Positions 6,271 through 26,786 of a stretch of DNA of 35,232 bases are shown one piece after another. The position numbers and the translations under genes were made by a program. This stretch comes from Bacteroidota bacterium. Lineage in GTDB: Bacteria; Bacteroidota; Bacteroidia; Chitinophagales; JADIYW01. The stretch's first letter is position 1. Each line of letters begins with the position of its first letter. The stretch is from positions 1-35,232 of the forward strand of contig JAQBNI010000106.1 of NCBI GenBank assembly GCA_028288625.1, given 5' to 3'. The notes under the pieces are model-generated. The model saw nothing but the letters and a program-made list of their open reading frames with translations, had not been told where the DNA came from and ran no database searches.

Positions 6271-6298
6271 TTAGTACTTAGTACTTAGTATTTAGTTG
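6271..6298. repeat. Heptamer tandem array, unit TTAGTAC
   Basis: Four back-to-back 7-bp units of consensus TTAGTAC begin at the base directly after the stop codon of the binding-protein gene and fill most of the gap to the glycosyltransferase start. The first two units are identical and the last two are degenerate. Confidence 0.7.
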
Positions 6299-6310
6299 AG
6301 GACATCTCAA

Positions 6311-9487: not shown

Positions 9488-9493
9488 TTAAAG

Positions 9494-9535
9494 AAATTAC
9501 GAATTAGGAATTATGAATTACGATTTGAGAATTAA
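9494..9535. repeat. Heptamer tandem array, unit GAATTAC
   Basis: Five 7-bp units of consensus GAATTAC (9501-9535), with one degenerate unit before them, occupy nearly the whole gap between the transporter and the DUF1801 gene and end exactly at the start codon at 9536. Confidence 0.75.
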
Positions 9536-13670: not shown

Positions 13671-14675
13671 TTACCAGGTGATACCGATCTTTCCCATTGT
13701 TTTACGCTTTTCCATGTCTTCGTGCGCCTGGTAAATATCTTTTGCGGCATACATGTTGCCGACATGCGGATCAATTTTTCCTTCATCCAATAAAGTGATC
13801 ACACTTTCCATGCAGTATTTTAAAGTATCCGGTTTATAATCGGCAATGCGGAGCATATTCACGCCGATCATCGCTCGACTTTCCATAATAAATTGCGCAG
13901 GATGGTAGATGCCGAATTGCGCGCCCATTTTTGCTTTTGTGAAAATATTTGTTGCATCCGTCATTGCGGCAGCGCCATATCCGACAAGCCTTCCGCCGCG
14001 GTTCAGCAGCTTGTAACTCTTCCTGAAATTTGCTGCCCCGAGACTGTCAAAAGCTACATCGATGGGCTCCTTGATCACTTCTGAAAAATCTTCTTTCGTA
14101 TAATTGATGGGGAAGTCAACACCTTGCTTGCGCAAATATTCCAGCTTGCTTTCGCTGCCTGCTGTGCCGTAAATTTTTGCATGCTTGAGTTTGCATAATT
14201 GAATTAATGCCGTTCCAACTCCGCCTGCTGCTGCATGTATAAGCACGGTTTCATGCGGCAGTACATTTGTTGCCACTGAACACGCATAGAAAGCCGTGCT
14301 GTATTGTGTGGCGAGCGCCAACGCTTTTCCAACGTCCATGGTTTCGCTTATTTTTGCAACGGCGCTTTCCTGCTGCGTTACATACTGACTGTATCCGCCG
14401 AACCTGGTGAATGCTAAAACGCGGTCGCCTTTTTTAAGCGTGGTTACATTTTTGCCCACTTTTTCAACCCTGCCTACTGCTTCATAGCCAATAATTGTTG
14501 GCAATGGCGGACAATCCTGGTAGTTGCCCATTCTTGCCACCACATCGGCAAAATTAATTCCGGATGCTTCGACAATAACGCCTACTTCATCATCCTTGGG
14601 TTCAGTCATTTGTATATCCCTGAATTCAAAAGCAACTTTAGGGGTTCCGTTCTTTACTAAATAAATAGCTTGCAT
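13671..14675 (-). CDS. Zinc-independent MDR quinone-oxidoreductase-like dehydrogenase (VAT-1-like)
   Basis: A 334-residue cytoplasmic medium-chain dehydrogenase/reductase of the quinone oxidoreductase group. The GroES-like N-terminal domain has EVGVIVEASGINFADVVARMGNY and the PTIIGYEAVGRVEKVGKNVTTLKKGDRV block. The NADPH-binding Rossmann fold starts with VLIHAAAGGVGTALIQLCK (about residues 143-162). The zinc ligands of true alcohol dehydrogenases are absent, and the C-terminus ends IYQAHEDMEKRKTMGKIGITW, as in VAT-1-like proteins. The substrate is probably a quinone or activated alkene, which is inference. The gene converges on the lipoprotein gene with no bases between the stop codons, and lies downstream of the aspartyl protease gene, separated by an inverted pair of heptamer arrays. 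Confidence 0.9.
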   Translation of the reverse strand: MQAIYLVKNGTPKVAFEFRDIQMTEPKDDEVGVIVEASGINFADVVARMGNYQDCPPLPTIIGYEAVGRVEKVGKNVTTLKKGDRVLAFTRFGGYSQYVTQQESAVAKISETMDVGKALALATQYSTAFYACSVATNVLPHETVLIHAAAGGVGTALIQLCKLKHAKIYGTAGSESKLEYLRKQGVDFPINYTKEDFSEVIKEPIDVAFDSLGAANFRKSYKLLNRGGRLVGYGAAAMTDATNIFTKAKMGAQFGIYHPAQFIMESRAMIGVNMLRIADYKPDTLKYCMESVITLLDEGKIDPHVGNMYAAKDIYQAHEDMEKRKTMGKIGITW

Positions 14676-14679
14676 TGGT

Positions 14680-14797
14680 AATGTTTAATGTTGAATGATT
14701 AATGTTTAAAAACTAAATTTAATTTGATTCTTTTTTATTGGACATGGATTATTGACAATTAATCTTATAATCATTCAACGTTCATCATCCAACATTA
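14680..14797. repeat. Opposed heptamer arrays (inverted arms), unit AATGTTT-type
   Basis: Four 7-bp units of the AATGTTT type (14680-14707) face four units of the complementary type (14770-14797) across the gap between the MDR and aspartyl protease genes. GTTGAATGATTA at 14690-14701 is perfectly complementary to TAATCATTCAAC at 14768-14779, with 66 bases between them. The right array includes the protease stop codon. Confidence 0.72.
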
Positions 14798-16027
14798 TAT
14801 TATACTTACTAATTTATAAGAAATTTTTGATATAACATTATTACGCCTGTAGTGCAGCGTGATTTTCCTGCCGATGCGCTTGTTTAATAAAGTTAAAGCA
14901 TCTTCCAGCTTTAAGCCGTCACAACTGTAATAATCGATTTTAATAATTTCATCCCCTTTCTGCAAACCTGCCAGCAGCGGTGGCGAATTTCCAGCAATAC
15001 TTTTTACAATAAATCCGCCATTTTTTGATTTATTTTCAAGTAAAATAATATTCGAAATATTGAAATAAAACGGATCTTTTATAGTAGAGTTGGGTCTGAA
15101 ATAAATTGCTTTTTCAGGATATGCAAAATAAAGATCCAGCCTGTTCATAATATCATTCCCGATATTTCCATCGAGTGTGTTTTCGTTGAGATCCCTGAAA
15201 GATATGGGAGTTTCATTGAATACGGTTACAACACTGTCAAACTTTAAGGTGTCAATAAATATTCTTTTTATCCTGCAAACCCTTGAATAGATTGGTCCTG
15301 ACAATCCTTCACCGATCTCCGCATCAATAAAATGATCGATGTGCAGATCTGCAGGATCTTTATTTTTTATGATCACGGGAACATTGGACCCGGTATCCAG
15401 CAGCAATTCAGAAAGGAACAGTTCTTTTTTGTTGTTCATCACCATGCACGACAAATATCCCTTACTCTTTCGGATATCAACTGCCATCTTCTGGAAACTC
15501 GCATTTAATTTTTTTTCCGGCTTTTTTGAATATAATTCGATCAGTCTTTTTTTATAGCTGATATGGACGTAATACTTTTCAAAGATCTCCGCTCCGAAAA
15601 TTCCATCTACATCCGTGCCGAGATAATTTTCGATGGATAAAGAATCCTTGCTTAAAATAAAGATTGGAATATGTTCGCCTTTCAATTCTCCAACCTGTAA
15701 TGTTCCATTGTCGATCTTCATCGTTTCGACAGAATCTTTAAAGCCTAAACCTGAGAAATAAACTTTTTGCTTGTAAGGAATATCAAATGAATCCAGCCAC
15801 TTCGGATGAATAATAATAGTGCTTTTACAACCGGAGTCAAAAATGAATTTCAGGGTTTTTGTTTTATTTACTTTCACATCCACAACAAGGATATTATTGA
15901 ATAAACGGAAAGGGAAGGTGATCTTGGTTTTTTTGGAATCGAAATAATAAAATTTGGTTTCTGCCCTTAATAAAAAAAACACAATAGAAAAAATACACAC
16001 CAAAAGAATTTTCCAATTACAGCGCAC
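14795..16027 (-). CDS. Membrane-anchored or secreted retropepsin-like aspartyl protease with PDZ domain
   Basis: A 410-residue protein with an N-terminal hydrophobic segment (residues 6-21, signal peptide or anchor). Two retroviral-type aspartyl protease lobes follow: FIFDSGCKSTII (catalytic D64-S-G) with the later DGIFGAEIF, and LLLDTGSNVPVII (D211-T-G) with GNIGNDIM. A PDZ domain occupies about residues 325-405, with NSPPLLAGLQKGDEIIKIDY as its core. This is the DUF/aspartyl-protease-plus-PDZ architecture found in many Bacteroidota. The first lobe has DSG rather than DTG, also an active form in pepsin-like enzymes. The only plausible start is GTG at 16027, as the next in-frame ATG is about 100 codons on. 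It lies upstream of the MDR gene on the same strand. Substrate unknown. Confidence 0.85.
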   Translation of the reverse strand: MRCNWKILLVCIFSIVFFLLRAETKFYYFDSKKTKITFPFRLFNNILVVDVKVNKTKTLKFIFDSGCKSTIIIHPKWLDSFDIPYKQKVYFSGLGFKDSVETMKIDNGTLQVGELKGEHIPIFILSKDSLSIENYLGTDVDGIFGAEIFEKYYVHISYKKRLIELYSKKPEKKLNASFQKMAVDIRKSKGYLSCMVMNNKKELFLSELLLDTGSNVPVIIKNKDPADLHIDHFIDAEIGEGLSGPIYSRVCRIKRIFIDTLKFDSVVTVFNETPISFRDLNENTLDGNIGNDIMNRLDLYFAYPEKAIYFRPNSTIKDPFYFNISNIILLENKSKNGGFIVKSIAGNSPPLLAGLQKGDEIIKIDYYSCDGLKLEDALTLLNKRIGRKITLHYRRNNVISKISYKLVSII

Positions 16028-16158
16028 TGACTAAATTTAAAAGAATTTTATCTATAAATAATACTTTTCATATTACCCTTGATTTGCAATGTATAAATAT
16101 TCACATTTTATTGATAGACAACGACTGCTCGCTTCATCATAAATTTAACTGCTTCCCG

Positions 16159-16166
16159 TACATTTG
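16159..16166 (+). promoter_or_regulatory. -7 box directly before the ABC-F start codon
   Basis: TACATTTG, a perfect TAnnTTTG match, is followed by four bases and then the ATG at 16171. If used, the transcript would start at or within a base or two of the start codon. No clear -33 TTG is visible at the usual distance. Confidence 0.45.
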
Positions 16167-16170
16167 CACC

Positions 16171-18024
16171 ATGAACTACCTGGCAGTCAACAATCTTACA
16201 AAATACTATGGCGATAAGCTCTTATTCAAGGACATTACTCTTTTTATTGACAAGGGACAAAAGGTGGCGCTGATTGCAAAGAACGGTTCGGGTAAATCTT
16301 CATTAATTAAAATTCTGCAGGGATTGGAGCCTCCGGAAAGCGGTGATTTCAAATTTCATAAAGATATTAAGGCAGGATTTTTGGTACAGGAACCAGAATT
16401 TGATGATTCCAAAACGGTTTACGAAACGATCATGCATGCAGAGAATCCTATTTTGATGGCAAGCTTAATTTATGAGCATGCACTCGATGGAAAGGGAGAC
16501 CTGCAAACTGCTATGAATAAAATGGATGAGCTGGAAGCGTGGGATTATGAACAGCAGATGAAAACCATCCTCGGTAAGTTTTTAATTTTTGATCTCGACC
16601 AGCGTGTCGGTACAATGTCGGGCGGACAAAAAAAACGTTTGGCTTTAGCCATATTGCTTTTAGAACAACCTGATATTTTTATCCTTGATGAGCCTACTAA
16701 CCACCTGGATATGGACATGGTAGAATGGCTGGAAGAATATCTTTCGAAAAATAATATAACACTACTGATGATCACGCACGACAGGTATTTTTTAGAAAAT
16801 ATTTGTAATGAGATCCTGGAGCTTGAAAACGGAGTTCTATATAAACACAAAGGCAATTATTCGAAATATTTAGAAAATAAAGAATTGCGTGAAGAGAATA
16901 TGAGGGTGAATGTAGAGAAAGCTCAAAATACATTTCGCAAGGAACTCGAGTGGATGCGACGACAACCGAAAGCGCGAACAGTGAAAGCAAAATCACGAGA
17001 AGATAATTTTGAAAATGTAAAAGAAAAAGCGACAGCGAAGATCCAGGATAAGCCTGTGGAAATGGAAGTGAAAATGCAAAGGCTTGGAGGGAAAATTTTA
17101 GAACTTCATAACATCCACAAAGAATATGACGATAAAGTTTTACTGGATAAATTTTCTCATAAATTTCAAAGAGGAGAACGGGTTGGAATTGTGGGACGAA
17201 ACGGCTGCGGTAAATCTACCTTATTAAATATTATCGTAGGAGATGAGCAGTTCGATAAAGGAAATATTGTATTGGGCGAAACTGTTGTGTTCGGCTATTA
17301 CAATCAAAAAGGACTACAGTTAAAAGAAGACAAGCGTGTAATAGAAGTGATAAAAAACATTGCTGAATTTTTACCTGTTGGGAAAGGAACTTTGTCTGCT
17401 GCCCAGTTACTCGAACGATTTTTATTTCCTTTTGAGCAGCAGTATAATTATGTTTCCACGCTGAGTGGTGGTGAACGCAGGCGCCTGTATTTGCTGACCA
17501 TCCTGATGAAGAACCCGAATTTTTTAATACTTGATGAACCGACAAATGACCTTGATATTCTGACATTACAAGTACTGGAAGATTTCCTGATGGATTTTAA
17601 AGGCTGTTTGGTGATTGTAAGTCATGACCGTTATTTTTTAGACAAACTGACCGAACATTTATTTGTATTTGAAGGTGATGGAAAAGTGCGTGATTTTCTT
17701 GGTAACTACAATGAATATCGCTTACAATTAAAAGAAGAAGCGCGACAATCAAGGAATGAAGAAAAGAATTCTGCGCTTCAAAATTCAAAAACAAATATTG
17801 CTGCAGTAAAGCGAAAGCTTTCTTTTAAAGAACAAACAGAATTCAAGCAACTTGAGAAAGACATAGAAAAACTAACGCTGGAAAAAGTGGAACTCGCAGA
17901 AAAATTATCCGGCAGCATTACAGACCACAAAGAGATACAAAAAGTTTCTCATCGCATTGACGAGATACTAAAGCAATTGGATAAAAAAGAAATGCGTTGG
18001 CTGGAGCTCAGCGAATTTGCATAA
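16171..18024 (+). CDS. ABC-F family ATP-binding cassette protein (Uup/EttA-like)
   Basis: A 617-residue soluble ATPase with two ATP-binding cassettes and no membrane segments; ABC-F proteins act on the ribosome. Cassette 1 has Walker A KNGSGKSS (about residues 38-45), signature MSGGQKKRLALA and Walker B FILDEPTNHLD. Cassette 2 has Walker A GRNGCGKSTLL, signature LSGGERRRLYLL and FLILDEPTNDLD. The linker between them carries the ABC-F interdomain region (WMRRQPKARTVKAKSR), and the last 90 residues form a charged coiled coil with IEKLTLEKVELAEKL and KQLDKKEMRW, as in Uup. The longer frame starting at 16084 is rejected because ATG 16171 gives the canonical MNYLAVNNLTK start. A role in translation-factor function or drug resistance cannot be told apart from sequence. 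Confidence 0.95.
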   Translation: MNYLAVNNLTKYYGDKLLFKDITLFIDKGQKVALIAKNGSGKSSLIKILQGLEPPESGDFKFHKDIKAGFLVQEPEFDDSKTVYETIMHAENPILMASLIYEHALDGKGDLQTAMNKMDELEAWDYEQQMKTILGKFLIFDLDQRVGTMSGGQKKRLALAILLLEQPDIFILDEPTNHLDMDMVEWLEEYLSKNNITLLMITHDRYFLENICNEILELENGVLYKHKGNYSKYLENKELREENMRVNVEKAQNTFRKELEWMRRQPKARTVKAKSREDNFENVKEKATAKIQDKPVEMEVKMQRLGGKILELHNIHKEYDDKVLLDKFSHKFQRGERVGIVGRNGCGKSTLLNIIVGDEQFDKGNIVLGETVVFGYYNQKGLQLKEDKRVIEVIKNIAEFLPVGKGTLSAAQLLERFLFPFEQQYNYVSTLSGGERRRLYLLTILMKNPNFLILDEPTNDLDILTLQVLEDFLMDFKGCLVIVSHDRYFLDKLTEHLFVFEGDGKVRDFLGNYNEYRLQLKEEARQSRNEEKNSALQNSKTNIAAVKRKLSFKEQTEFKQLEKDIEKLTLEKVELAEKLSGSITDHKEIQKVSHRIDEILKQLDKKEMRWLELSEFA

Positions 18025-18031
18025 AAAGTTT

Positions 18032-19075
18032 CTACTCTTTCTTGTTGGATATTTCGAAATCCAGCAGCCATTTTTTTCGCCATACACCACCGCCATAACC
18101 CGTCATTGTGCCGTCATTTCCAATTACCCGGTGACAAGGAATAATAATTGCAATCCTATTCATGCCGTTTGCATTTGCCACTGCCCGAACTGCTTCGGGT
18201 TTTTGAATGGCAGTGGCTTGTTGTTTATAGGAACGCGTTTTACCGTAAGGAATATTTTGTAATTCTTTCCAGACCGACTGCTGAAATTCACTTCCCGGTG
18301 TATACAACGGGACCGTAAACTCTGTTCTTCTTCCATCAAAATATTCAGTGATCTCTTTTTGAAGCAGCTCAAAATGTTTATTAGCTCCCTGGATAATAGA
18401 AGCATTTAATTGTTTAGCTAAACTTTTAAATTCTGTTTCCAGCATTTTCCTGTCAGAAAATTCAAGCAGGCAAATTCCTTTCTCTGTTGCGCAGGCAAAC
18501 ATTGTACCCAGCGGAGTTTCCAGGCGTGTGAGATCAACTACTATTTGATCCTTACTGTTTTTCGGAGATACGCCAAATATAGATTTGAAAGAATCATTAA
18601 ATCCGCTTAAAGATTCGTAGCCGGTTTCAAAAGCTGTTGAGGTCACTGAATTTCCATTCTGTATTTTTTTAAATGCAGAATTGATACGGAACATTCTCTG
18701 GTAAGCATGAAATGTAATGCCGTGATTTTTTAAGAACCACCTGCGTATCGTTGCAGGTTCTATACCTTTTAACCTGAGGTCGTAATCTTTAAATTTGTGT
18801 GCCGGCTGTTCTGTGATCTCTTTTAAGAGGTTGCGAATGTAATCCGGTGTTTCATTTAGTTTTTCCAACGGATTGCAGACTTTACAAGGTCTGTATCCGT
18901 GTAATATGGCTTCCTTTGTGCTGTTGAAAAATTCTACATTCTCTTTTTTGGGTTTTCGCGCAGTGCAGGTCGGGCGACAAAAAATCCCCGTTGTTTTTAC
19001 GGCGGCGATAAATGATCCTTCATAGGAAACATCTTTATCAACCAAAGCCTGGTACATGATCGTATCGGTAAGCAT
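18032..19075 (-). CDS. ada: Bifunctional Ada: methylation-sensing transcriptional activator and O6-methylguanine-DNA methyltransferase
   Basis: Repairs alkylated DNA and switches on the adaptive response. The 347-residue protein matches the length of E. coli Ada (354). The N-terminal zinc/methyl-phosphotriester domain has FCRPTC (C33, C37) and PCKVC (C64, C67); C33 corresponds to the methyl-acceptor Cys38. An AraC-type helix-turn-helix follows (about residues 90-165). The C-terminal MGMT domain has the active cysteine in IIPCHRVIG (C314) and ends with the usual GYGGGVWRKKWLLDFE. ATG 19075 is chosen because it gives MLTDTIMYQALVDKDVSYEGSF and a purine-rich upstream run; ATG 19105 is also possible, and a longer frame starting at 19207 would run through a heptamer array. 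It converges on the ABC-F gene with seven bases between stops. Confidence 0.94.
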   Translation of the reverse strand: MLTDTIMYQALVDKDVSYEGSFIAAVKTTGIFCRPTCTARKPKKENVEFFNSTKEAILHGYRPCKVCNPLEKLNETPDYIRNLLKEITEQPAHKFKDYDLRLKGIEPATIRRWFLKNHGITFHAYQRMFRINSAFKKIQNGNSVTSTAFETGYESLSGFNDSFKSIFGVSPKNSKDQIVVDLTRLETPLGTMFACATEKGICLLEFSDRKMLETEFKSLAKQLNASIIQGANKHFELLQKEITEYFDGRRTEFTVPLYTPGSEFQQSVWKELQNIPYGKTRSYKQQATAIQKPEAVRAVANANGMNRIAIIIPCHRVIGNDGTMTGYGGGVWRKKWLLDFEISNKKE

Positions 19076-19148
19076 ATCTTTTTCAAACAAAATTAATTGA
19101 CTCATATTAAGCTGACAACCGATAAATGAACAAGTATTTTTTTCTGTA

Positions 19149-19266
19149 GTATTAAGTAGTGAGTATTTCGTATTGCGACAATACCAAGGTTTAATAACAG
19201 TAATCATCTTTTCTCACATCTCCATACTTTGTACGCATTACTCAATACGCTGTACATACTACTATT
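19149..19266 (-). repeat. Opposed heptamer arrays upstream of ada (unit GTATTGC / TACGCAT)
   Basis: On the plus strand, four 7-bp units of GTAnTnn type (19149-19176) face five TAC-led units (19232-19266) in the gap between the esterase stop and the ada start; the last unit contains the esterase stop codon. Read on the minus strand, the inner part carries GTGAGAAA (19210-19217), then TTGTCGCAATAC (19170-19181), and TCACTACT (19155-19162), all found again at 24063-24107. Confidence 0.7.
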
Positions 19267-20485
19267 TGCACCCCGCTGCATTATTGCAAACCGGTGCATC
19301 CGCATTCATAATTTCCTTTCCTTTAATAGGATTTCCCTGTACCACACTGTAAGTAAAATCACTGATAAGCGTGAGCAATTTATTAAAGCCAACGCTGCTC
19401 ATGCCATGACCGCCACCGCACATGTAATCAAATTTCACCGTATTGTTGTTCTTCATAAATTCATAGATCAAACCGCTTCCTGCAATTTCAGGAAAAGTAT
19501 TTTTTTGTTTGCATTTATATGCAGGACCTTTTACAGGATCGATCAATTCATCACAGCTTCCGGAGATCAGCTCCACTGCATCTGCATTTGCTTTCTTATT
19601 CATGATCTTTTCCGTGAGAATAGCACCGGCGAGTGTAAACACACCTGCTACGTGAGTATTGTACTGCATATTATCTTTCATCGGATCAAGTGTACCGCCT
19701 ACCTGGTCAAGAATGCCTTTCGGGATATCGCTTTCATCATACAATGCCATTCCCAATGCTGTAATCGCACCTGCGCTTTGTCCGCCGATAAAGATTTTAT
19801 TCGGATCTATTCCCAGGCGCTCAGCATTTGCTTTTAAATATCGTACGGCTGAGCGCGCATCTTGTATAGCCCGTATCACCGCAGGATAAAAACCGGTATT
19901 AAAATCTCCCTGGCATTGTGAAGATTCTATGGCATTTTGAAAACCGATACGGTAGTCCATAGAGGCAACGACGTACCCTTTTTGTACCATGCCGGTGCAG
20001 ACCTCTGTGGTGCAATCATCCACCTTCATATAAAATCCTCCGCCAAAAATATACACTACGCACGGTCGTTTTTTTTCTGCATCATCTCTTGGCGAAAATA
20101 TATCCATGATGAGATCCATGTTGCCGCCATTATATGTTGGTGCACTTTTTTTGTACGTTTCCGAAATAATATCGTAGTCTTTGTAAATATAATCTTTGTA
20201 ACGCGTGCCCCATGGGTTAGGATTAGTGGTCAACATTTTTCCTCCGGGAATAAGTGTAGGCTTTATTCGATTTTTATTAGGAGGATAAGTGATGACATAT
20301 GCACGTGGCGGCAACTGACCGGTTGCTTTCTGAACGCTGGTTTGTGTTTGAAGAAGTGCAGTACAACCCGTTAAGAATCCCGTGGTGATTATACAAAGAA
20401 AGAGCAGGCTGTTTTTTGCTGTTCTTGTTTTATTGATTTTTATATTGCTGAAATAGGTGTAAGCAGTTGGAAGTTCCGAATTCAT
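19262..20485 (-). CDS. Alpha/beta-hydrolase esterase lipoprotein
   Basis: A 407-residue carboxylesterase/lipase-type alpha/beta hydrolase. A hydrophobic stretch ends in LTGC with C41 as a likely lipidation site, unusually far from the N-terminus (about 25 polar residues precede it); no other in-frame ATG lies between. The oxyanion region is YIFGGGFYM (about 145-153), the nucleophile elbow is GGQSAGA with S237, and the late histidine is in GGGHGMSS (about 364), so a catalytic triad is present. The spacing from elbow to the substrate side and the C-terminal lid are those of the BD-FAE/esterase_lipase group. Substrate unknown. It lies on the minus strand about 33 bp downstream of the ceramidase gene; both could act on lipid or ester substrates, which is inference. 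Confidence 0.85.
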   Translation of the reverse strand: MNSELPTAYTYFSNIKINKTRTAKNSLLFLCIITTGFLTGCTALLQTQTSVQKATGQLPPRAYVITYPPNKNRIKPTLIPGGKMLTTNPNPWGTRYKDYIYKDYDIISETYKKSAPTYNGGNMDLIMDIFSPRDDAEKKRPCVVYIFGGGFYMKVDDCTTEVCTGMVQKGYVVASMDYRIGFQNAIESSQCQGDFNTGFYPAVIRAIQDARSAVRYLKANAERLGIDPNKIFIGGQSAGAITALGMALYDESDIPKGILDQVGGTLDPMKDNMQYNTHVAGVFTLAGAILTEKIMNKKANADAVELISGSCDELIDPVKGPAYKCKQKNTFPEIAGSGLIYEFMKNNNTVKFDYMCGGGHGMSSVGFNKLLTLISDFTYSVVQGNPIKGKEIMNADAPVCNNAAGCK

Positions 20486-20503
20486 AATTAAAAAGATTAG
20501 TTA

Positions 20504-20511
20504 CGAAAGTA
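20504..20511 (-). promoter_or_regulatory. Possible -7 box for the esterase gene
   Basis: On the minus strand the sequence reads TACTTTCG, one mismatch from TAnnTTTG, 18 bases before the esterase ATG. It overlaps a small perfect inverted repeat (GTTAC, four bases, GTAAC). Weak evidence; the gene could also be read from the ceramidase promoter. Confidence 0.25.
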
Positions 20512-20518
20512 ACCAAAA

Positions 20519-21466
20519 TCACTCTAATTTGTTCATGTTTCTCACTGGAACAGGCTCAACCGCAGCTACAACTTCTTCCTCTTCCACGGTTAAAAATTCT
20601 TCGCTCCTGTAATAAAGGTAAGCTAAGAGAATACTGAATGTATTCAGAATATGCCACAATGCATGTCCCTGGAAAACGCTTGTCGGAGAGCAGAGTTTAT
20701 TCGTGATATCAAGCACCCAGATAGAGAACGCGATAAGCAATGTAATGAATGATGCTTTTAACAATCCTAAAACTGATGTAGAATTTTTCACCTTCGTGAT
20801 CAATATAAAATTCGTTGCAAAAAATGAAAGTGTGAGCAAGGGGAATATAATATTGATGGGTAATCTCCAAAGGAAAAAGAAAAAGCATGCCTGGACAATG
20901 ATCGCGCAAACAATAAAAAATTTGTTGGAGACATAGGTTTTTCCTTTGTACTTTATGATCGGAAATAATTTAAAAAGTGTGTAAGAAAGAAATGCGACAA
21001 ATAAAAAATACATGCCGGTCTGATCGATCTTTTGAAAAAAGAAAGTGAGTGTTGCATGATACATAAAACTTCCGATGCCCATGTACAAGGTAGAAAAACC
21101 AATGAGGTATGTGAAACCGGGAAATTTTGCAAGCAGGTTGTTTACACTATGTCTTTCAGAGTAACGGTGATCATTTTTAGCAATGCTGATAAACATTAAA
21201 GCGATAATAATGTAGCCGATGTTCGACCAGGTATTCGAAGGCTGTACGATTAGTTGATCGAAGCGGTTCATTTCACAAAAATGCGTTGCATTTCCTAAAG
21301 CCTTGCGCCATGTTTCCCAGGGATCGATATATTGATTAAGCTTGTATAAAACGAATAAGCCTGCAGCAATAATGATCGTCCCGAAAAAAGGCCAGGTGAG
21401 CACTCGTGGGCGATGATTATGCAAACTATAATCCTCTTTGAATTTGTCGAAATCTAAAATTGGCAT
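20519..21466 (-). CDS. Alkaline-ceramidase-like integral membrane hydrolase (CREST superfamily)
   Basis: A 315-residue polytopic membrane protein with about seven hydrophobic segments. It matches the alkaline ceramidase/aPHC family, whose members hydrolyse ceramide to sphingosine and fatty acid or act as receptors and related hydrolases. The diagnostic segments are CEMNRFDQLIVQPSNTWSNIGYI (about residues 64-86, the family C-E...QPxNTxSN signature), SFMYHATLTFF (S133, H137), the following KIDQT (D148) and the C-terminal GHALWHILNTFS with two histidines. Together these give the Ser, Asp and three His residues of the superfamily metal site. Many Bacteroidota make sphingolipids, so ceramide turnover is plausible, but the substrate is not shown here. 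It is followed on the same strand by the esterase lipoprotein. Confidence 0.88.
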   Translation of the reverse strand: MPILDFDKFKEDYSLHNHRPRVLTWPFFGTIIIAAGLFVLYKLNQYIDPWETWRKALGNATHFCEMNRFDQLIVQPSNTWSNIGYIIIALMFISIAKNDHRYSERHSVNNLLAKFPGFTYLIGFSTLYMGIGSFMYHATLTFFFQKIDQTGMYFLFVAFLSYTLFKLFPIIKYKGKTYVSNKFFIVCAIIVQACFFFFLWRLPINIIFPLLTLSFFATNFILITKVKNSTSVLGLLKASFITLLIAFSIWVLDITNKLCSPTSVFQGHALWHILNTFSILLAYLYYRSEEFLTVEEEEVVAAVEPVPVRNMNKLE

Positions 21467-21486
21467 GGATGGTTTTGAGTCTTTAA

Positions 21487-21494
21487 CAAAAATA
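21487..21494 (-). promoter_or_regulatory. Candidate -7 box for the ceramidase-like gene
   Basis: Reads TATTTTTG on the minus strand, a perfect TAnnTTTG match, 20 bases before the start codon at 21466. No convincing -33 element. Confidence 0.4.
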
Positions 21495-21540
21495 CACTTT
21501 TGTGATCCTCACCGCTTGATTATATTGTTAAAGAAGTGAT

Positions 21541-21569
21541 AAAAAAAACCACCCCGAAAAAAGGAGTGG
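21541..21569 (-). terminator. Rho-independent terminator after the DUF4412 gene
   Basis: On the minus strand, CCACTCC and GGGGTGG form a seven-pair stem (one mismatch) around a seven-base loop of mostly T, followed by a run of eight T. It lies 27-56 bp after the DUF4412 stop codon. Confidence 0.8.
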
Positions 21570-21596
21570 CTGTTATTCTATATAAATGTACTTAGA

Positions 21597-22493
21597 TTAT
21601 TTTCCGCCGAACATTGGTAATCCGCGTATATCTGTAATTGTAAAACCATCAGTTGTAAATAGTGATGCGGCAGGTTTAATTTTTTTAATATCTGTAAGTG
21701 TTACTTTCATTTCAGAGCCATCCCTGTTTAAAACATTTGTTTCGAGGGCAGTACCTTTAACATCTGAAACATTGGTTTCGCCAAATGGTGATTTACCTTT
21801 AAATCCTGCATTTGCCATGGTAATGAGATCGTTCGTATTCAATGCGAGATCCGCAGTAACCCACGATTCTATCTTCTTTATTTTGTTGGTGCTGTCAGGA
21901 TAGGTAACCAATAACTTTTCGCATTTATATCCCTGGATAATTTTCGTTTCTCCCGTCTTTTTAATTAAAGGCGCCTTTGCTGCTTTCTTGGGATCTGCAG
22001 TAGCAAGAACCGGTTTAGGGCGTTTCATCAGCAAGCCTGATTTCTTACCCTTGTTGTCTGTGGTGAGCATTGTTATTTCGTCGTATTGTGCATTTACTAA
22101 AGCACGTAAACTTTTTACATCTCTAATAACAAACGATGGAACCATAGCAGCCTGGAAGCCATCAAATGCGTATTGTATTTTGCCGGCATTGGATTTACCC
22201 TGCACATTCTTTTCATCAAAATTCATCGTGAAGCTGCCAAGAAAAGTAAATGGTTTTGCCGTTGGAGAAGGTTTGCTCTCTTCTGCAGCCGTTTCACTTC
22301 TTTGTGTTTTTATATTTGCAGAAGTATTTTTTTGAGTTTTTTCAACAGGTGGCTTTACCGGTTTAGGATGCATTTGTTCTGACTTAACCTTCATTTCAGC
22401 AGCCTTCCTGGGGTCGATAGTAATTGTTTTGTTGTTTTGCGCTTCACAAAGAATGAAGGAACCTATAAAGAGAAATAAAAATGCTTTTTTCAT
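21597..22493 (-). CDS. DUF4412 domain-containing secreted protein
   Basis: A 298-residue protein with a 19-residue signal peptide (MKKAFLFLFIGSFILCEAQ), so it is exported. After a Lys/Pro/Ser/Thr-rich linker (residues about 45-80) comes the DUF4412 domain, with KSGLLMKRPKPV, the strand GYKCEKLLVTYPDSTNKIKKIESWV and the final EMKVTLTDIKKIKPAASLFT. DUF4412 proteins occur widely in Bacteroidota and related phyla; their role is unknown. The fold is predicted to resemble periplasmic beta-rich ligand-binding domains (LolA-like), which is inference. It is a single-gene unit with its own promoter box (22510-22517) and terminator (21541-21569). Confidence 0.85.
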   Translation of the reverse strand: MKKAFLFLFIGSFILCEAQNNKTITIDPRKAAEMKVKSEQMHPKPVKPPVEKTQKNTSANIKTQRSETAAEESKPSPTAKPFTFLGSFTMNFDEKNVQGKSNAGKIQYAFDGFQAAMVPSFVIRDVKSLRALVNAQYDEITMLTTDNKGKKSGLLMKRPKPVLATADPKKAAKAPLIKKTGETKIIQGYKCEKLLVTYPDSTNKIKKIESWVTADLALNTNDLITMANAGFKGKSPFGETNVSDVKGTALETNVLNRDGSEMKVTLTDIKKIKPAASLFTTDGFTITDIRGLPMFGGK

Positions 22494-22509
22494 GTGTTCA
22501 AAATTTCCC

Positions 22510-22517
22510 CAAAGATA
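22510..22517 (-). promoter_or_regulatory. -7 box for the DUF4412 gene
   Basis: Reads TATCTTTG on the minus strand, the strongest form of the Bacteroidota -7 consensus, 16 bases before the ATG at 22493. The expected leader is about 10 bases. The -33 TTG is not at the expected spacing. Confidence 0.55.
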
Positions 22518-22598
22518 GAATATTATCGCAACCGAGTTTACGATTTGAGGTTTTTTAATCCGAATGGAAAGAAAGAGAAAAAAGGAATATATTATTCT

Positions 22599-23090
22599 TT
22601 AAAAAACAGCTCTGAAAAAATGATAACACATCATCAGGACAAGGATAATTTTTATACCGCTGGTGAATAAAAAGCCGATAAAAGACCCAATGCCGGAGCG
22701 GATCGCAACGGAAATATTCTGCCCGGTGACGAGTTCTGCTGCCATCGCTCCGAGAAACGGACACACAATAATGGAAATAGCGCCAAAAGGCGAGAGTATG
22801 ATGCCGATAAGGATGCCGATAAAACTGCCCCTGATGCCGGCTTTGGTACCGCCGAATTTTTTAGTACCCCACACCGGGATAAAATAATCAGCAACAAGAA
22901 TAATAAAAATAATTATAGCATAAGTGATCAGCAGCCATACAGGAAGGTCTTCGGTTTTATTCAAACCAAAATAAGCGATGAGCAAGGCAATGTATGCAAT
23001 CGGAGGACCCGGTAATGGCGGCAGCACACAGCTTACCAATCCGATCACCAGTAAAATAATTCCTATAGTTATGATAATACTTGCTTCCAC
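22599..23090 (-). CDS. DUF456 domain-containing membrane protein
   Basis: A 163-residue small integral membrane protein of the DUF456 family, with about four hydrophobic segments. Landmarks are the opening ILLVIGLVSCVLPPLPGPPIAYIALL (a conserved double-proline PGPP loop), DYFIPVWGTKKFGGTKAGIRGSFIG and the glycine-rich repeat ILIGIILSPFGAISIIVCPFLGAMAAEL. The GTKKFGGTKAGIRG stretch is the most conserved part of the family. Function unknown. The start is GTG at 23090, the first start codon after an in-frame gap; no ATG in the frame would retain the first membrane segment. It is divergent from surE, with a 130 bp gap holding promoter boxes on both strands. Confidence 0.88.
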   Translation of the reverse strand: MEASIIITIGIILLVIGLVSCVLPPLPGPPIAYIALLIAYFGLNKTEDLPVWLLITYAIIIFIILVADYFIPVWGTKKFGGTKAGIRGSFIGILIGIILSPFGAISIIVCPFLGAMAAELVTGQNISVAIRSGIGSFIGFLFTSGIKIILVLMMCYHFFRAVF

Positions 23091-23152
23091 TTTTTAGAAT
23101 ACATTTTTTAAATTCCTATCCGTCGCTATAAAAATAGAATAAATTTATACTG

Positions 23153-23160
23153 CAAAAATA
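23153..23160 (-). promoter_or_regulatory. Candidate -7 box for the DUF456 gene
   Basis: Reads TATTTTTG on the minus strand, 62 bases upstream of the GTG start, which would leave a leader of about 55 bases. It is in an A-rich stretch, so chance matches are likely. Confidence 0.3.
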
Positions 23161-23200
23161 AAAATTAAAATCCGTGGGACTTATTATTATCGCTTGTCAC

Positions 23201-23216
23201 TAAATTTGTACCTTTG
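23201..23216 (+). promoter_or_regulatory. Two adjacent -7 boxes in front of surE
   Basis: TAAATTTG (23201-23208) is followed directly by TACCTTTG (23209-23216), both perfect TAnnTTTG matches. The second is four bases from the surE ATG, as at the ABC-F gene, so transcripts may be nearly leaderless. Confidence 0.45.
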
Positions 23217-23220
23217 GCGC

Positions 23221-24030
23221 ATGAGCAAACCCCTGATTTTAGTTACGAATGATGATGGAATTGTTTCTCCCGGGATCAAAGCGCTTGTAGAAGTGATGAC
23301 AAAATTCGGAGATGTTACGGTGGTGGCGCCTGACAGCCCGCAATCCGGCATGGGACACGCCATTACGATTCACGATCCGCTGCGCTTGCAGAAAGTAAAT
23401 GTTTTCGGAGATGTTCCTTCTTACCAGTGTTCAGGCACTCCTGTTGATTGCGTAAAGATTGCGATCGATAAGATCTTTCACAGGAAACCGGATCTTTGTG
23501 TGTCGGGTATCAATCATGGCTCTAACGCATCTATAAATGTGATTTATTCCGGAACGATGTCAGCAGCAATGGAAGCGGCTATTGACGGCATTCCGGCTGT
23601 TGGTTTTTCTCTTCTTGATTTTTCTTTCGATGCGGATTTCAAACCTGCACAAGTATATATTGAAAAGATTATTGCAAATGTTTTAAAAGGAGGGATTCCA
23701 AAAGATTCTTTATTAAATGTAAATTTTCCAAAGCTGCCGTCGAGCAAAATAAAAGGAATGAAGATATGCCGGCAGGCAACAGCGAAATGGGAGGAAGAAT
23801 TTGATGAGCGAATAGATCCGAACGGAAAGGCGTATTACTGGCTAACCGGAAATTTCGTGAATAAAGACCAGGGAGAGGACACGGATATCTGGGCTTTGGA
23901 AAATGGCTATGTGTCTATTGTTCCCGTGCAGTTTGACCTTACACATTATCACGCCATTTCTTATATAAATCAAAACTGGGATATTCACGAGAAAATGATG
24001 GATAAGAAGATCGATATTAAGAAAAGCTGA
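23221..24030 (+). CDS. surE: 5'-nucleotidase/exopolyphosphatase SurE
   Basis: A 269-residue metal-dependent nucleoside-monophosphate phosphatase linked to stationary-phase survival and phosphate metabolism. The start MSKPLILVTNDDGIVSPG places the metal-binding D11-D12 in the NDDG motif; the later VVAPDSPQSGMGHAITI, SGTPVDCVKIA, the serine/asparagine-rich SGINHGSNASINVIYSGTMSAAMEAA and a C-terminal WDIHE follow the family order. Normal SurE length is about 250-270. The open frame reaches nine codons further upstream, but the ATG at 23221 gives the family N-terminus. It is followed by a heptamer element and a small membrane protein gene, then lpxB, all on the same strand. Confidence 0.96.
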   Translation: MSKPLILVTNDDGIVSPGIKALVEVMTKFGDVTVVAPDSPQSGMGHAITIHDPLRLQKVNVFGDVPSYQCSGTPVDCVKIAIDKIFHRKPDLCVSGINHGSNASINVIYSGTMSAAMEAAIDGIPAVGFSLLDFSFDADFKPAQVYIEKIIANVLKGGIPKDSLLNVNFPKLPSSKIKGMKICRQATAKWEEEFDERIDPNGKAYYWLTGNFVNKDQGEDTDIWALENGYVSIVPVQFDLTHYHAISYINQNWDIHEKMMDKKIDIKKS

Positions 24031-24038
24031 AGCAAATA

Positions 24039-24113
24039 GTACAACGTATAACGTATTGCGTAGTGAGAAAGAAAACGGATAAATATTTTGTCGCAATACT
24101 CACTACTAACACA
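24039..24113 (+). repeat. Opposed heptamer arrays after surE, unit GTATTGC
   Basis: Four 7-bp units of GTAnnnn type (24039-24066) are followed by a 26-base spacer and inverse units (24093-24106). The inner part carries GTGAGAAA (24063-24070), TTGTCGCAATAC (24088-24099) and TCACTACT (24100-24107), matching the element upstream of ada. It fills the gap between surE and the next start codon. Confidence 0.75.
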
Positions 24114-24118
24114 ACACA

Positions 24119-24430
24119 ATGGAAAACAAAGAAAATTTTTTAGATAAAATCAATCAAACTATGATCGGTTTTATGATGGGATTGATATTGCCGATGCTCA
24201 TGTTTGTACTTTATCACCAGCTTAAATTCAGTTATTTGCCGTGGGATGAGTATGTAAAAAGTACCAGGGATCTCGCTGTTCTTCCTTCATTTATTAAGGT
24301 GTGCGTATTTATTAATCTTCCGTTTTTTTTCCTGTTTAACCTCATCGGGAAATTTAATTTGTGCAAGGGTTTATTTATCTCTTCAATTCTTTACATCATT
24401 GCTATGCTGGTGATAAAATTTGCGTTGTAA
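24119..24430 (+). CDS. Small membrane protein (hypothetical)
   Basis: A 103-residue protein that I do not recognise. It has three hydrophobic segments: about residues 17-33 (MIGFMMGLILPMLMFVL), 60-78 (FIKVCVFINLPFFFLFNLI) and 86-100 (FISSILYIIAMLVI), with charged ends (MENKENFLDK). It contains no cysteine or histidine motif that would suggest an enzyme. It lies between surE and lpxB on the same strand, in an arrangement that could make it part of the lipid A gene cluster, but no function follows. Its frame is bounded by a heptamer array upstream and by another array downstream, in front of lpxB. Confidence 0.7.
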   Translation: MENKENFLDKINQTMIGFMMGLILPMLMFVLYHQLKFSYLPWDEYVKSTRDLAVLPSFIKVCVFINLPFFFLFNLIGKFNLCKGLFISSILYIIAMLVIKFAL

Positions 24431-24433
24431 CTG

Positions 24434-24468
24434 CTTACGACTTATCACTTACGACTTACGACTAAATA
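24434..24468. repeat. Heptamer tandem array before lpxB, unit CTTACGA
   Basis: Four clear 7-bp units of consensus CTTACGA (24434-24461), plus a degenerate fifth, fill the gap between the small membrane gene and the lpxB start codon at 24468. Confidence 0.78.
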
Positions 24469-25535
24469 TGAAATATTACATTATAGCAGGAGAGGCATCC
24501 GGCGATTTGCATGCGGCAAGCTTGGTAAAAAAAATTGCTGAACTGGATGCGCATGCTGAATTTAAAGGTGTTGGCGGAGAAAAATTAAAAGAAGCAAATG
24601 TAGAATTGCTGTTCGGTCTAGAAAGGCTCGCCTTCATGGGCTTTTATGAAGTGATCAAAAACCTGCGTACTGTCCGTAAAAATTTTCTCGAAGTAAAAAA
24701 GGATATTCTTTCATTTAAGCCAGATGTGGTGATCCTCACAGATTATCCCGGATTTAATTTACGGATGTCTAAATGGTCTAAACAAAATGGGTTTAAAGTA
24801 GCTTATTTTATTTCTCCGCAGATTTGGGCATGGAATGAGAAGCGTGTAGAGATCATAAAAAAATATGTTGATCTCGTGCTTTGCGTGTTGCCTTTTGAAA
24901 AGGCATTTTATGAAAAACATGGTTACCCAAATGCACATTTTATCGGTCATCCTTTGATGGATGTAAGAGATGAACATCAACCTGAAGTTGTTTCAGGACA
25001 AAAAACAATCGCACTTCTTCCCGGCAGCCGCAAACAAGAGATCAGAAAATTGCTGCCGTTAATGCTGAAAACAGCGCGAGAATTTCCTGCTGAAAAATTT
25101 GTAATTGCAGGAATATCAAGATTGAAAGAATTGTATACTGTTGAACTTCCGGAGAATGTTTCTATTGTGTTTGATAAGAGTGCTGAAGTTTTGCATCATT
25201 CAAAAGCAGCAGTCGTCTGCAGTGGAACCGCAACATTGGAAACTGCTTTGTTACACATTCCCCAGGTTGTGGTTTATAAGACATCCTGGCTGAATTACCA
25301 GATCGGCAAGCGTCTTTCAAAAGTAGATTTTATTTCCCTGCCCAATTTAATTGCCGGTGAAAAAATTGTAGAGGAATTGATACAGGATGATTGTACAGTT
25401 GAAAGGATTTCAGTGGAATTAAAAAAACTTCTCCATTCTCCAATTTCCCAATCCTACAATTCTCTAATTGAAAAGATAGGAGAGAAGGGTGCATCTGCTA
25501 AAGCTGCTGCATTGATTTTCAATCTCGCACGTTGA
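24468..25535 (+). CDS. lpxB: Lipid-A-disaccharide synthase LpxB
   Basis: Glycosyltransferase family 19 enzyme joining UDP-2,3-diacylglucosamine to lipid X (2,3-diacylglucosamine-1-phosphate) to form the lipid A disaccharide on the inner membrane. The 355-residue protein starts MKYYIIAGEASGDLHAASLV, the GEASGDLHA motif being diagnostic. Later landmarks are YFISPQIWAWNEKRVEIIKKYVD, LCVLPFEKAFYEKHG, the GHPLMD motif, and ALLPGSRKQEIRKLLPLML, which is the donor-binding PGSR region, then CSGTATLETALLHIPQVVVYKT. The open frame begins 16 codons earlier, inside the heptamer array; ATG 24468 gives the family start. It is normal in length (E. coli 382). Together with kdsB in this window it shows a lipid A/Kdo-bearing outer membrane. 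Confidence 0.96.
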   Translation: MKYYIIAGEASGDLHAASLVKKIAELDAHAEFKGVGGEKLKEANVELLFGLERLAFMGFYEVIKNLRTVRKNFLEVKKDILSFKPDVVILTDYPGFNLRMSKWSKQNGFKVAYFISPQIWAWNEKRVEIIKKYVDLVLCVLPFEKAFYEKHGYPNAHFIGHPLMDVRDEHQPEVVSGQKTIALLPGSRKQEIRKLLPLMLKTAREFPAEKFVIAGISRLKELYTVELPENVSIVFDKSAEVLHHSKAAVVCSGTATLETALLHIPQVVVYKTSWLNYQIGKRLSKVDFISLPNLIAGEKIVEELIQDDCTVERISVELKKLLHSPISQSYNSLIEKIGEKGASAKAAALIFNLAR

Positions 25536-25545
25536 TTTATTTTTT

Positions 25546-25553
25546 TATATTTG
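25546..25553 (+). promoter_or_regulatory. -7 box for tRNA-Ala
   Basis: TATATTTG, a perfect TAnnTTTG match, 17 bases before the tRNA. The expected start would give a leader of about ten bases. No obvious -33 element. Confidence 0.45.
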
Positions 25554-25569
25554 TGCATAATCTTTTTCC

Positions 25570-25646
<77 letters not shown>

Positions 25647-25653
25647 ACTCTGC

Positions 25654-25681
25654 AAATCGTAAATTGTAAATCGTAATTCCA
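25654..25681. repeat. Heptamer tandem array, unit AAATCGT
   Basis: Three clear 7-bp units of consensus AAATCGT, plus a degenerate fourth, fill the gap between the tRNA and the FAD oxidoreductase gene, ending four bases before its start codon. Confidence 0.72.
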
Positions 25682-25685
25682 CTTC

Positions 25686-26786
25686 ATGTTTTCTTTTTGG
25701 GAAAAACAATCTGTCCATACGTATGATTTTGCTGTTATAGGCGCGGGGATCATGGGATGTAGTATTGCATTTGAATTGCGTCAGAAATTTCCGGATGCGA
25801 AGATTGTTATATTGGAACGCAGCTTATTTCCTTCTGGTGCATCTACAAAGAATGCAGGCTTTGCATGTTTCGGCTCTCCATCCGAGATATTGCACGATGT
25901 TGAATTAAACGGCGAAAATAAAACCATAGAGATCGTTTCACAGAGGATTGAAGGATTAAAGATCCTACAGGAGAGGTTGGGTGATGAAAAAATGGGAAGA
26001 ACTTCCGGTGGCGGATATGAGCTGATTTTTGAGGATATTAATTATAAACAGAAAATAGATCGTCTCAATCAATTACTATCACCCATCGTTAAAACTCCTG
26101 CATTTTCAGATGTTTCGGACAAAATTGATCTATTTGGTTTTTCCGGTGGAATTAAACAATTGCTGTCTTGCTGCAATGAGGCGCAAATTGATTCCGGTAA
26201 GATGATGATGAATTACTGGAATTTATTAAGAGAAAATAATATCACGATTATTACCGGTGCAAACATAAAAAAAGTAGAAGATGATATCATAGAGATTGAA
26301 GGATCTTCAAACGATTTTTTAAAAGCAAAGAGAATATTTATTTGTACAAATGCATTTATTAAAGATATTCTTCCGGGTATTAATATTAAGCCGGGTCGTG
26401 GACAAGTTCTCATTACAAAGCCGGTTAAGAATCTTTCTTTTTCAGGAAGTTTTCATTTTGACAAAGGATATTATTATTTCAGGAATGTAGGAGACAGGGT
26501 TTTGTTTGGCGGCGGTCGAAATATAGATTTTTTGAATGAAGAAAGTAAAGAACTTGTAATCAATCAAAAAATTATTGATGATCTTATTTTAAAACTTCAT
26601 ACTGTTATTTTACCTGGAAAAGAATTTGAGATTGACCAGGTCTGGCAGGGAATTATGGGGTTTGCAGACAATAAGCTGCCGCACAAAGTGAATATCAACA
26701 GTTATACTACCTATGCTATGTCATGTAATGGAATGGGAATTGCCTTATCTCCGTTTATCGCAAGGGAGTTGGTTTTTTCAATATAA
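25686..26786 (+). CDS. FAD-dependent oxidoreductase (DAO family)
   Basis: A 366-residue flavoprotein of the D-amino-acid-oxidase/glycine-oxidase group. The dinucleotide-binding fold is DFAVIGAGIMGCSIAFEL at residues about 14-31, followed by KIVILERSLFPSGASTKNAGFACFGSPSE, the usual substrate-domain entry of this family with the motif GASTKNAG. FAD contacts continue with the C-terminal YAMSCNGMGIALSPFIARELVF. The substrate is probably an amino acid or related amine, but cannot be told from sequence; paralogues with a thiazole-synthesis role (ThiO) are also in this family. It has no signal peptide. The gene follows tRNA-Ala and a heptamer array, and ends close to a terminator hairpin that, from its T-run, serves the convergent yceI gene. 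Confidence 0.88.
   Translation: MFSFWEKQSVHTYDFAVIGAGIMGCSIAFELRQKFPDAKIVILERSLFPSGASTKNAGFACFGSPSEILHDVELNGENKTIEIVSQRIEGLKILQERLGDEKMGRTSGGGYELIFEDINYKQKIDRLNQLLSPIVKTPAFSDVSDKIDLFGFSGGIKQLLSCCNEAQIDSGKMMMNYWNLLRENNITIITGANIKKVEDDIIEIEGSSNDFLKAKRIFICTNAFIKDILPGINIKPGRGQVLITKPVKNLSFSGSFHFDKGYYYFRNVGDRVLFGGGRNIDFLNEESKELVINQKIIDDLILKLHTVILPGKEFEIDQVWQGIMGFADNKLPHKVNINSYTTYAMSCNGMGIALSPFIARELVFSI

Follow-up and report, generated by a model that had tools for sequence, protein, structure and literature searches.

Opposed heptamer tracts between the genes of a Bacteroidota bacterium are ordinary members of a large set that is common in the phylum

Tandem repeats of seven-base units have been described between the genes of Xanthomonas, Nostoc, and Beggiatoaceae, and have so far been explained separately, as quadruplexes, as sites for RNA regulators, and as polymerase contacts. 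The GGGAATC and GGGGA(T/C)T repeats of Xanthomonas and Nostoc form G-quadruplexes in vitro, and the report on them states that tracts between the same genes differ in length and sequence among species and that the same polarity preference holds for G-rich heptamers in three organisms (PMC4692102). TAACTGA direct repeats are known from Beggiatoaceae, Cyanobacteria, and five Bacteroidetes through a study that follows one unit sequence, in which it sees a potential target of a post-transcriptional regulator (PMC4679880). It also describes other heptamer repeats beside TAACTGA in two Bacteroidetes, and shorter gaps without obvious repeats in near relatives. According to Mrazek (2007), as quoted in PMC4692102 and PMC4679880, the heptanucleotide is the most abundant long-repeat unit in most genomes. 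Among the literature found, only PMC4679880 bears on such tracts in Bacteroidota. Here, we describe the heptamer tracts of a Bacteroidota bacterium of the order Chitinophagales (assembly GCA_028288625.1), with emphasis on two two-armed elements of a 35,232-nucleotide stretch (contig JAQBNI010000106.1, positions 1 to 35,232, hereafter the window). Tracts of this kind are already known from bacteria but have yet to be explained; they are common in Bacteroidota and are built of octamers in at least one relative. What is new is the lack of G-runs, the many unit classes in one genome, the wide spread in the phylum, and the octamer version.

Both elements have the same build. Read in the sense of the neighboring genes, GTA-type heptamers make up the left arm and TAC-type heptamers the right arm, and the spacer between them is A/T-rich. 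The first lies on the minus strand between an esterase gene (19262-20485, minus) and ada (18032-19105, minus), the families being those of Pfam and the ada start being our own placement at the ATG that yields the Ada domains. Its left arm (19209-19262) consists of GTA-type heptamers beside the esterase stop and is followed by the spacer (19182-19208) and the right arm (19146-19181), which reads TTGTCGCAATAC, GAAATAC, and TCACTACT. The second lies on the plus strand between surE (23221-24030) and a small gene (24119-24430). Its left arm (24038-24067; sequence and lag-7 detection) includes GTACAAC, GTATAAC, GTATTGC, and GTAGTGA, the spacer covers 24068-24087, and the right arm (24088-24110), composed of TTGTCGCAATAC and TCACTACT, ends 8 bases from the ATG at 24119. 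An exact word search confirmed the description given in an earlier note on this window, namely two elements between co-directional genes that have internal words in common, with one additional heptamer in the ada copy. GTGAGAAA is found at 24063 (plus) and 19210 (minus), TTGTCGCAATAC at 24088 (plus) and 19170 (minus), and TCACTACT at 24100 (plus) and 19155 (minus), while the additional GAAATAC is at 19163 (minus). A further GTGAGAAA at 20538 (minus) is outside both elements. The third opposed pair (14677-14797) also proved to have the same layout, with TAATGTT/GAATGAT units. Its arm beside the start of the gene at 13671-14675 (14677-14710, minus) was found by the detector, and the opposed arm beside the stop of the gene at 14795 (14763-14797, minus) was seen by eye.

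The abundance of such tracts was determined in 40 stretches of this genome, taken by contig and place regardless of the matches inside them, together with the window (831,732 bases in all). The contigs were chosen as long ones known from earlier matches. Arrays were detected as self-identity at a fixed lag of at least 16 of 21 bases. At lag 7 there were 83 arrays. Lags 4 to 6 gave none, and lags 8 to 13 gave 8, 7, 5, 3, 12, and 2; the 50 arrays at lag 14 are a harmonic of 7. Five dinucleotide shuffles in 500-base blocks gave 1, 4, 1, 5, and 3 lag-7 arrays, which bears out the earlier suspicion that the elements are more than chance runs. The density is approximately one tract per 10 kb, or approximately 370 when extrapolated to 3.7 Mb. 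The detector is conservative, since of the four arms of the ada and surE copies only the left surE arm passes its threshold, and the number of tracts is therefore an undercount. Samples of five genomes of the same genus (331,668 bases) contained 6 lag-7 hits, two of which look like true tracts by eye, compared with 38 hits in the first 396,500 bases of this genome, showing that the abundance is a trait of this lineage. Fifty of the 83 arrays lie in co-directional gaps, 9 in convergent gaps, 7 in divergent gaps, 13 in called genes, and 4 at stretch ends. The co-directional gap is also the commonest type overall (342 of the 500 gaps of at least 25 bases). The arrays within called genes (13/83, for example at L087:8647, L093:7424, and L168:10471) may in part reflect wrong gene calls and may in part be truly intragenic.

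These properties agree with the account of the Xanthomonas and Nostoc repeats (PMC4692102), which are likewise exact 7-base tandem units (here, the 83 arrays at lag 7), intergenic, chiefly in co-directional gaps (50/83 here) and seldom in divergent ones (7/83 here). In contrast to the one G-rich unit family that this account covers, many unit classes occur in one genome here, including GTATTGM/GTAGTGA, AGTACTT, GTAAGTC, AAGTTAT/AAGGTAT, GAATGTT, GTTCACA, and AATTACG, and the class can change in the same register within one tract, as at 19064-19122 of L097. GGG or CCC is present in none of the 83 consensus units and in 4 of the 83 arrays. With no three G or C in a row in any consensus unit, quadruplexes are unlikely to be the cause of the layout. 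The tracts thus share the layout of the Xanthomonas and Nostoc repeats but lack G-tracts, and are not members of the G-rich family. They also resemble the TAACTGA repeats of PMC4679880 in being intergenic heptamers near start codons in one orientation with related heptamers mixed in. That study gives one inverted repeat in its main genome, whereas opposed pairs are common here. The word TAACTGA itself is present once, in one of the 83 arrays (L098), with the near form TAACTCA before a start codon in L096 and the class GTTATCA, the complement of TAACTGA, in the related locus L071.

The earlier note had taken the two window elements as members of one dispersed element family that have internal blocks in common and read in the sense of their genes. 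A large dispersed set far above chance is supported, but a single element with a conserved core in gene sense is not. GTA repeated every seven bases has 79 matches in the genome and the reversed pattern 106; the latter is not a clean control because tracts of a common ATG-containing class fit it. Eleven two-armed GTA elements were compared, 2 from the window, 2 from stretches taken by place, and 7 from targeted retrieval. The window pair ranked 39th in similarity among the 55 pairs. No spacer homology was found among the GTA elements of more than 100 bases; the surE element is shorter and is not among them. The spaced pattern GTGAGAAA-N20-50-TTGTCGCAATAC has a single match in the genome, the ada copy; in the surE copy the two words are 17 bases apart and hence do not fit the pattern. 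TTGTCGCAATAC occurs 3 times in the 831,732 bases, two of these in the window elements. The recurring innermost word of the class, TCGCAATAC, which is within the block common to the window copies, was found in 13 distinct arms. It is in sense in both window copies, antisense in four gaps between minus-strand genes (L094, L117:4287, L121, and L131), in convergent gaps in L092, L169, L116, and L119, and without a scored gene on one side in L101 and L117:392. The copy in L127 is in sense in one scoring and in a divergent gap in another. TCGCAATAC therefore stands on either strand, which comes near to an outcome, copies in either orientation, that the earlier note itself had named as refuting its reading. 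The blocks common to the window elements are words of the class, and the elements are ordinary members of the heptamer-tract set and form no special pair. A modest excess of units in common with other Bacteroidota is suggested by comparison with 43 of their 45 arrays, two low-complexity ones having been dropped: 9 units are identical versus 2.3 by letter shuffling (maximum, 7), and 34 are alike with at most one mismatch versus 24 (maximum, 33).

The feature that does recur is the opposed layout. The G-strand of each array was assigned by its G-minus-C skew. Among 14 neighboring pairs at most 150 bases apart, 10 have the G-strand in the left array and the C-strand in the right one, 1 has the reverse, 1 has both G, and 2 have both C. 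Of the arrays at most 30 bases from a gene edge, 40 have a G-strand that reads inward, into the gap, and 9 one that reads outward (4 undefined); among arrays farther away the counts are 5 inward and 8 outward. Arrays that are alone in their gap, some of which have a partner below threshold, are 27 inward, 11 outward, and 4 zero. At stop edges, array-bearing gaps of at least 40 bases are 40 inward, 7 outward, and 4 zero, which is the opposite of the bias in gaps without arrays (118 inward, 192 outward, 41 zero). At start edges, the counts are 35, 14, and 2 in gaps with arrays and 264, 151, and 44 in gaps without them. Polarity thus tracks gene edges, the same strand reading inward from the nearest gene. 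In a test that does not use skew, like units from different gaps were compared for direction, with 38 arrays whose edge was unambiguous. Identical units had the same direction in 36 of 39 pairs (permutation P = 4e-4), units with one mismatch in 87 of 122 (P = 0.003), and units with two mismatches in 180 of 282 (P = 0.001). With loose edges the result was weaker (P = 0.0026, 0.017, and 0.030 at 0, 1, and 2 mismatches), and for stop-side arrays alone it fell short of significance (34 to 29 pairs; P = 0.25). A set selected for arrays within 8 bases of an edge comprised 26 stops and 22 starts in this genome and 11 stops in G299. On the stop side, the rise in lag-7 identity coincides with the stop codon; on the start side, it is set 3 to 5 bases off the start codon.

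The same arrangement was observed in another genome of the order, G299, where 39 arrays in 160 kb are 28 inward and 3 outward and 11 of 14 neighboring pairs are convergent, none divergent, and 3 on the same strand. G390 repeats the polarity more weakly (8 inward, 3 outward), and G128 and G248 had no arrays that could be scored. In PMC4692102, the paired sites are convergent as well (compare 10/14 here and 11/14 in G299), and the G-strand lies downstream on the coding or upstream on the non-coding strand, as it does here and in G299 and G390.

Comparison with relatives showed that tracts differ at the same junctions. Five relatives (L002 to L006) have a short surE junction without arrays, and the lpxB junction is likewise short and array-free in both relatives where it was located. 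The leuC-leuD junction could be read in seven members of the genus. C-strand heptamers of the same polarity stand before the leuD start in this genome, G002, and G007, the latter two detected once the threshold was relaxed to 14 of 21, and a fainter stretch in G004 was detected at 12 of 21 only. No tract was found at this junction in G001, G003, or G005, and G006 gave no orthologue. The words of the three leuD tracts are partly different and partly common. This variation resembles the tract change between two Xanthomonas species described in PMC4692102.

Tracts are widespread in the phylum. AGT every 7 bases has matches in 282 of 395 Bacteroidota genomes, compared with 170 at every 8 bases, which is an upper bound because some period-8 matches are 4-base repeats, and 79 at every 10. 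An index that sums AGT and TGA on both strands in these genomes is 0 in 56 genomes and no higher than 3 in 110, and it reaches 20 or more in 211 and 100 or more in 66; it can be inflated by a few long arrays since overlapping matches are counted. Stretches from high-index genomes held no arrays in 80 kb of G157 and 52 kb of G248, 1 in 51 kb of G128, and 3 in 80 kb of G120; G381 (7 in 26 kb) and G299 were richer. G185, of the same order, has 236 matches at period 8 and none at period 7, and period-8 counts are also high in G388, G390, G173, and G106. In G185, opposed arms of GTAGTANN-like octamers lie between the stop and the start codon in L195 and L196 (G185:C1, near 98728 and 143166), with a further pair in L197 (near 211645) and one arm seen in L198. 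These four loci were chosen because they were pattern matches. When four 20-kb stretches of G185 were instead taken by place, they contained no lag-8 arrays and two lag-7 arrays at the detector threshold, perhaps because the octamer units are too variable for the detector. In 80 kb of G390, 18 lag-8 and 16 lag-7 arrays were detected, many of them in one 20-kb stretch.

Taken together, the period, the class vocabulary, the intergenic location, the inward polarity, the unrelated spacers, and the short array-free junctions of relatives, along with GTA-class arms that are not specially matched to each other, are consistent with each element being locally grown simple-sequence DNA that arose by fixed-step duplication from the gene edges, rather than a copied unit. 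On balance, we consider this explanation probable. A process with a fixed 7-base step would repeatedly duplicate a short word into the intergenic gap, starting from the gene edge, and the words would afterwards drift and turn over while a 3- to 4-base core and the period persist. Opposed arms would arise in two-armed gaps because growth runs inward from either edge. The duplication may be slippage-like, with weak selection that tolerates growth between genes only. Several observations weigh against this explanation. No growth event has been observed. The start-edge polarity (35:14) is close to background (264:151), and part of the polarity rule may therefore be due to composition or selection. 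G381 (3 inward, 3 outward) and G120 (0 inward, 1 outward) showed no such polarity, although these are few cases. The words that the leuC-leuD tracts have in common indicate that they may be one old, changed tract and not repeated gain. In G299, two-armed pairs are of the same class in 10 of 15 cases versus 2.4 expected, with one exact mirror, and GTA words are likewise present in both arms of the eleven GTA elements; shared arm classes are not accounted for if growth was independent and nothing else was at work. Finally, period-8 tracts elsewhere mean that the step is not universally 7. The polymerase-contact idea, as Mrazek (2007) is quoted in the two papers above, expects one common length, whereas here it is mostly 7 and in a few genomes 8, which would not be expected from that idea in its simple form.

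The shared arm classes of G299, with their exact mirror, would suit an intergenic RNA hairpin in which the opposed arms pair in the transcript to end, process, or stabilize it, roles of the kind raised in the earlier note, and two gaps of this genome fold strongly (L094, z = -4.8; L100 417-551, z = -4.9). Nevertheless, the own arms of the 11 GTA elements pair at -22.6 kcal/mol, compared with -24.9 ± 1.2 for swapped arms, and 97% of the permutations are at least as stable as the own arms. Co-directional gaps of 60 to 200 bases with arrays have a mean z of -0.95, with 26% below -2 (n = 23), and matching gaps without arrays a mean z of -1.14, with 23% below -2 (n = 90), so the gaps with arrays fold no better. 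With the threshold loosened slightly, 13 of the 15 neighboring pairs in the sample of this genome have no class in common in the inverted sense (2 share one, with 0.9 expected); single arrays keep their polarity, with the reservation on sub-threshold partners given above. Even in G299, own pairs of the GGATG class score no better than swapped ones, and own pairs of the CGTGAG class are somewhat better on average, mostly owing to one mirror. The feature in common is opposed polarity, and arm pairing differs by species. A scan of 13500-25800 gave no terminator-like site (a G+C-rich stem followed by a T-run) on the elements, and Rfam at gathering score gave one tRNA in the window and no match on the elements. 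A hairpin, terminator, or stabilizer is thus unsupported by the swapped-arm test, the fold z-scores, and the terminator scan, and appears doubtful. Selection on translation, by which tracts would insulate neighboring reading frames through a sense strand that is dense in stops in all frames after a stop codon and almost free of starts and stops before a start codon, would account for the stop-edge polarity being opposite to background. Moreover, stop codons are present in 52 of 63 G-strand units (letter-shuffled null, 46.2 ± 3.0) and in 11 of 63 C-strand units (null, 22.1 ± 3.5), and start codons, as raw counts, number 42 on the G-strand and 2 on the C-strand; 20 of the 83 units were dropped for equal G and C or too few letters. 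However, the G-strand excess is small, and single tracts of either polarity fill short co-directional gaps (about 5 sense-G and 4 sense-C), so that the edge rules are not strict. We regard this selection as an unlikely origin of the tracts, albeit one to be kept in mind. An even smaller chance attaches to a mobile inverted-repeat element with heptamer-array ends, either a miniature inverted-repeat transposable element (MITE) or a REPIN moved by RAYT, which is highly improbable. Repetitive extragenic palindromic (REP) elements and REPINs are dispersed intergenic inverted pairs with a variable spacer and are associated with RAYT genes. The tracts share the dispersed paired layout, in many two-armed copies, and the genome has four Y1_Tnp matches, three of them above the family cut-off. 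Unlike REP/REPIN elements, the tracts have no conserved core beyond the class words and flank no RAYT-like gene: the flanks of the four Y1_Tnp matches (approximately 1.5 kb) hold one lag-7 hit, T/A-rich and outside the element classes (L102). Classes differ within one gap, and the conserved interior of a MITE was not found, the spacers being unrelated. As for target-site duplication at an empty site, array-free junctions do exist in relatives, and the gaps, viewed by eye, look unrelated.

Other explanations concern what could write the words. If they were scars of intergenic double-strand breaks, with 7-base additions made at each 3' end before joining, then inward polarity, unmatched arms, and unrelated spacers would be predicted, and all three are seen. 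A Ku gene is present here (G000:C68:11758-12294) and in none of seven genus mates. Among the 395 Bacteroidota genomes, the median index is 63 in the 51 with Ku and 18.5 in the 344 without it (P = 5e-5), a comparison that is uncorrected for genome size and uses an index that a few long arrays can inflate; the link also holds within families (permutation P = 0.002). Against this, G299 (39 tracts in 160 kb) and G390 (16 period-7 tracts in 80 kb) are tract-rich without a Ku match, and Ku genomes with an index of 0 or 1 exist (G112, G190, G024, and G398). Ku is therefore correlated with the tracts but not necessary for them, and the association is a lead only. No RVT_1 match was found in this genome, a point against such scars, and a reverse-transcriptase template was rejected as well, with RVT_1 in 1 of 8 genomes of the genus. 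Break-end scars seem quite unlikely. There is also a small chance that the words are written inward from gene edges by a process dedicated to end extension or copying, whose step is set by lineage (7 in most Bacteroidota and 8 in a few, G185 among them). If so, the step length would belong to an enzyme, as a heritable trait, and not to the sequence, and opposed-arm tracts would be a readable record of intergenic breaks or re-priming. That the same layout and polarity occur without G-runs, in many words and across a phylum, speaks against functions tied to a particular word and in favor of a single process common to all. What determines the step length has a natural test case in the octamer genome G185.

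Besides the two-armed elements, single arms were observed in the window, all on the plus strand. An array of the AGTACTT class (6262-6300) overlaps a stop codon, with the TAA within its first unit, and one of the AATTACG class (9491-9530) almost fills its gap. An array of the TTACGAC class (24433-24467) occupies the 37-base gap ahead of lpxB, and one of the GTAAATC class (25651-25681) lies between a tRNA-Ala gene and the next gene. Within 25570-25681 of the window, the tRNA-Ala (GGC) gene is immediately followed by that tract. The small gene at 24119-24430, between surE and lpxB, has no Pfam match, and similar-looking sequence is found at the same place in several relatives. The gene at 14795-15982, which adjoins the third element, has a predicted product that combines aspartyl protease and PDZ domains. 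In several gaps, dispersed repeats of another kind, with palindromic cores of the CCCCTTATCAAGGGG and CTCTCCTTAATAAGGAGAG types, stand beside or between heptamer arms (L117 375-596, 3031-3342, and 3896-4320; L097 18974-19243; L155 7976-8197; and L171 16479-16687).

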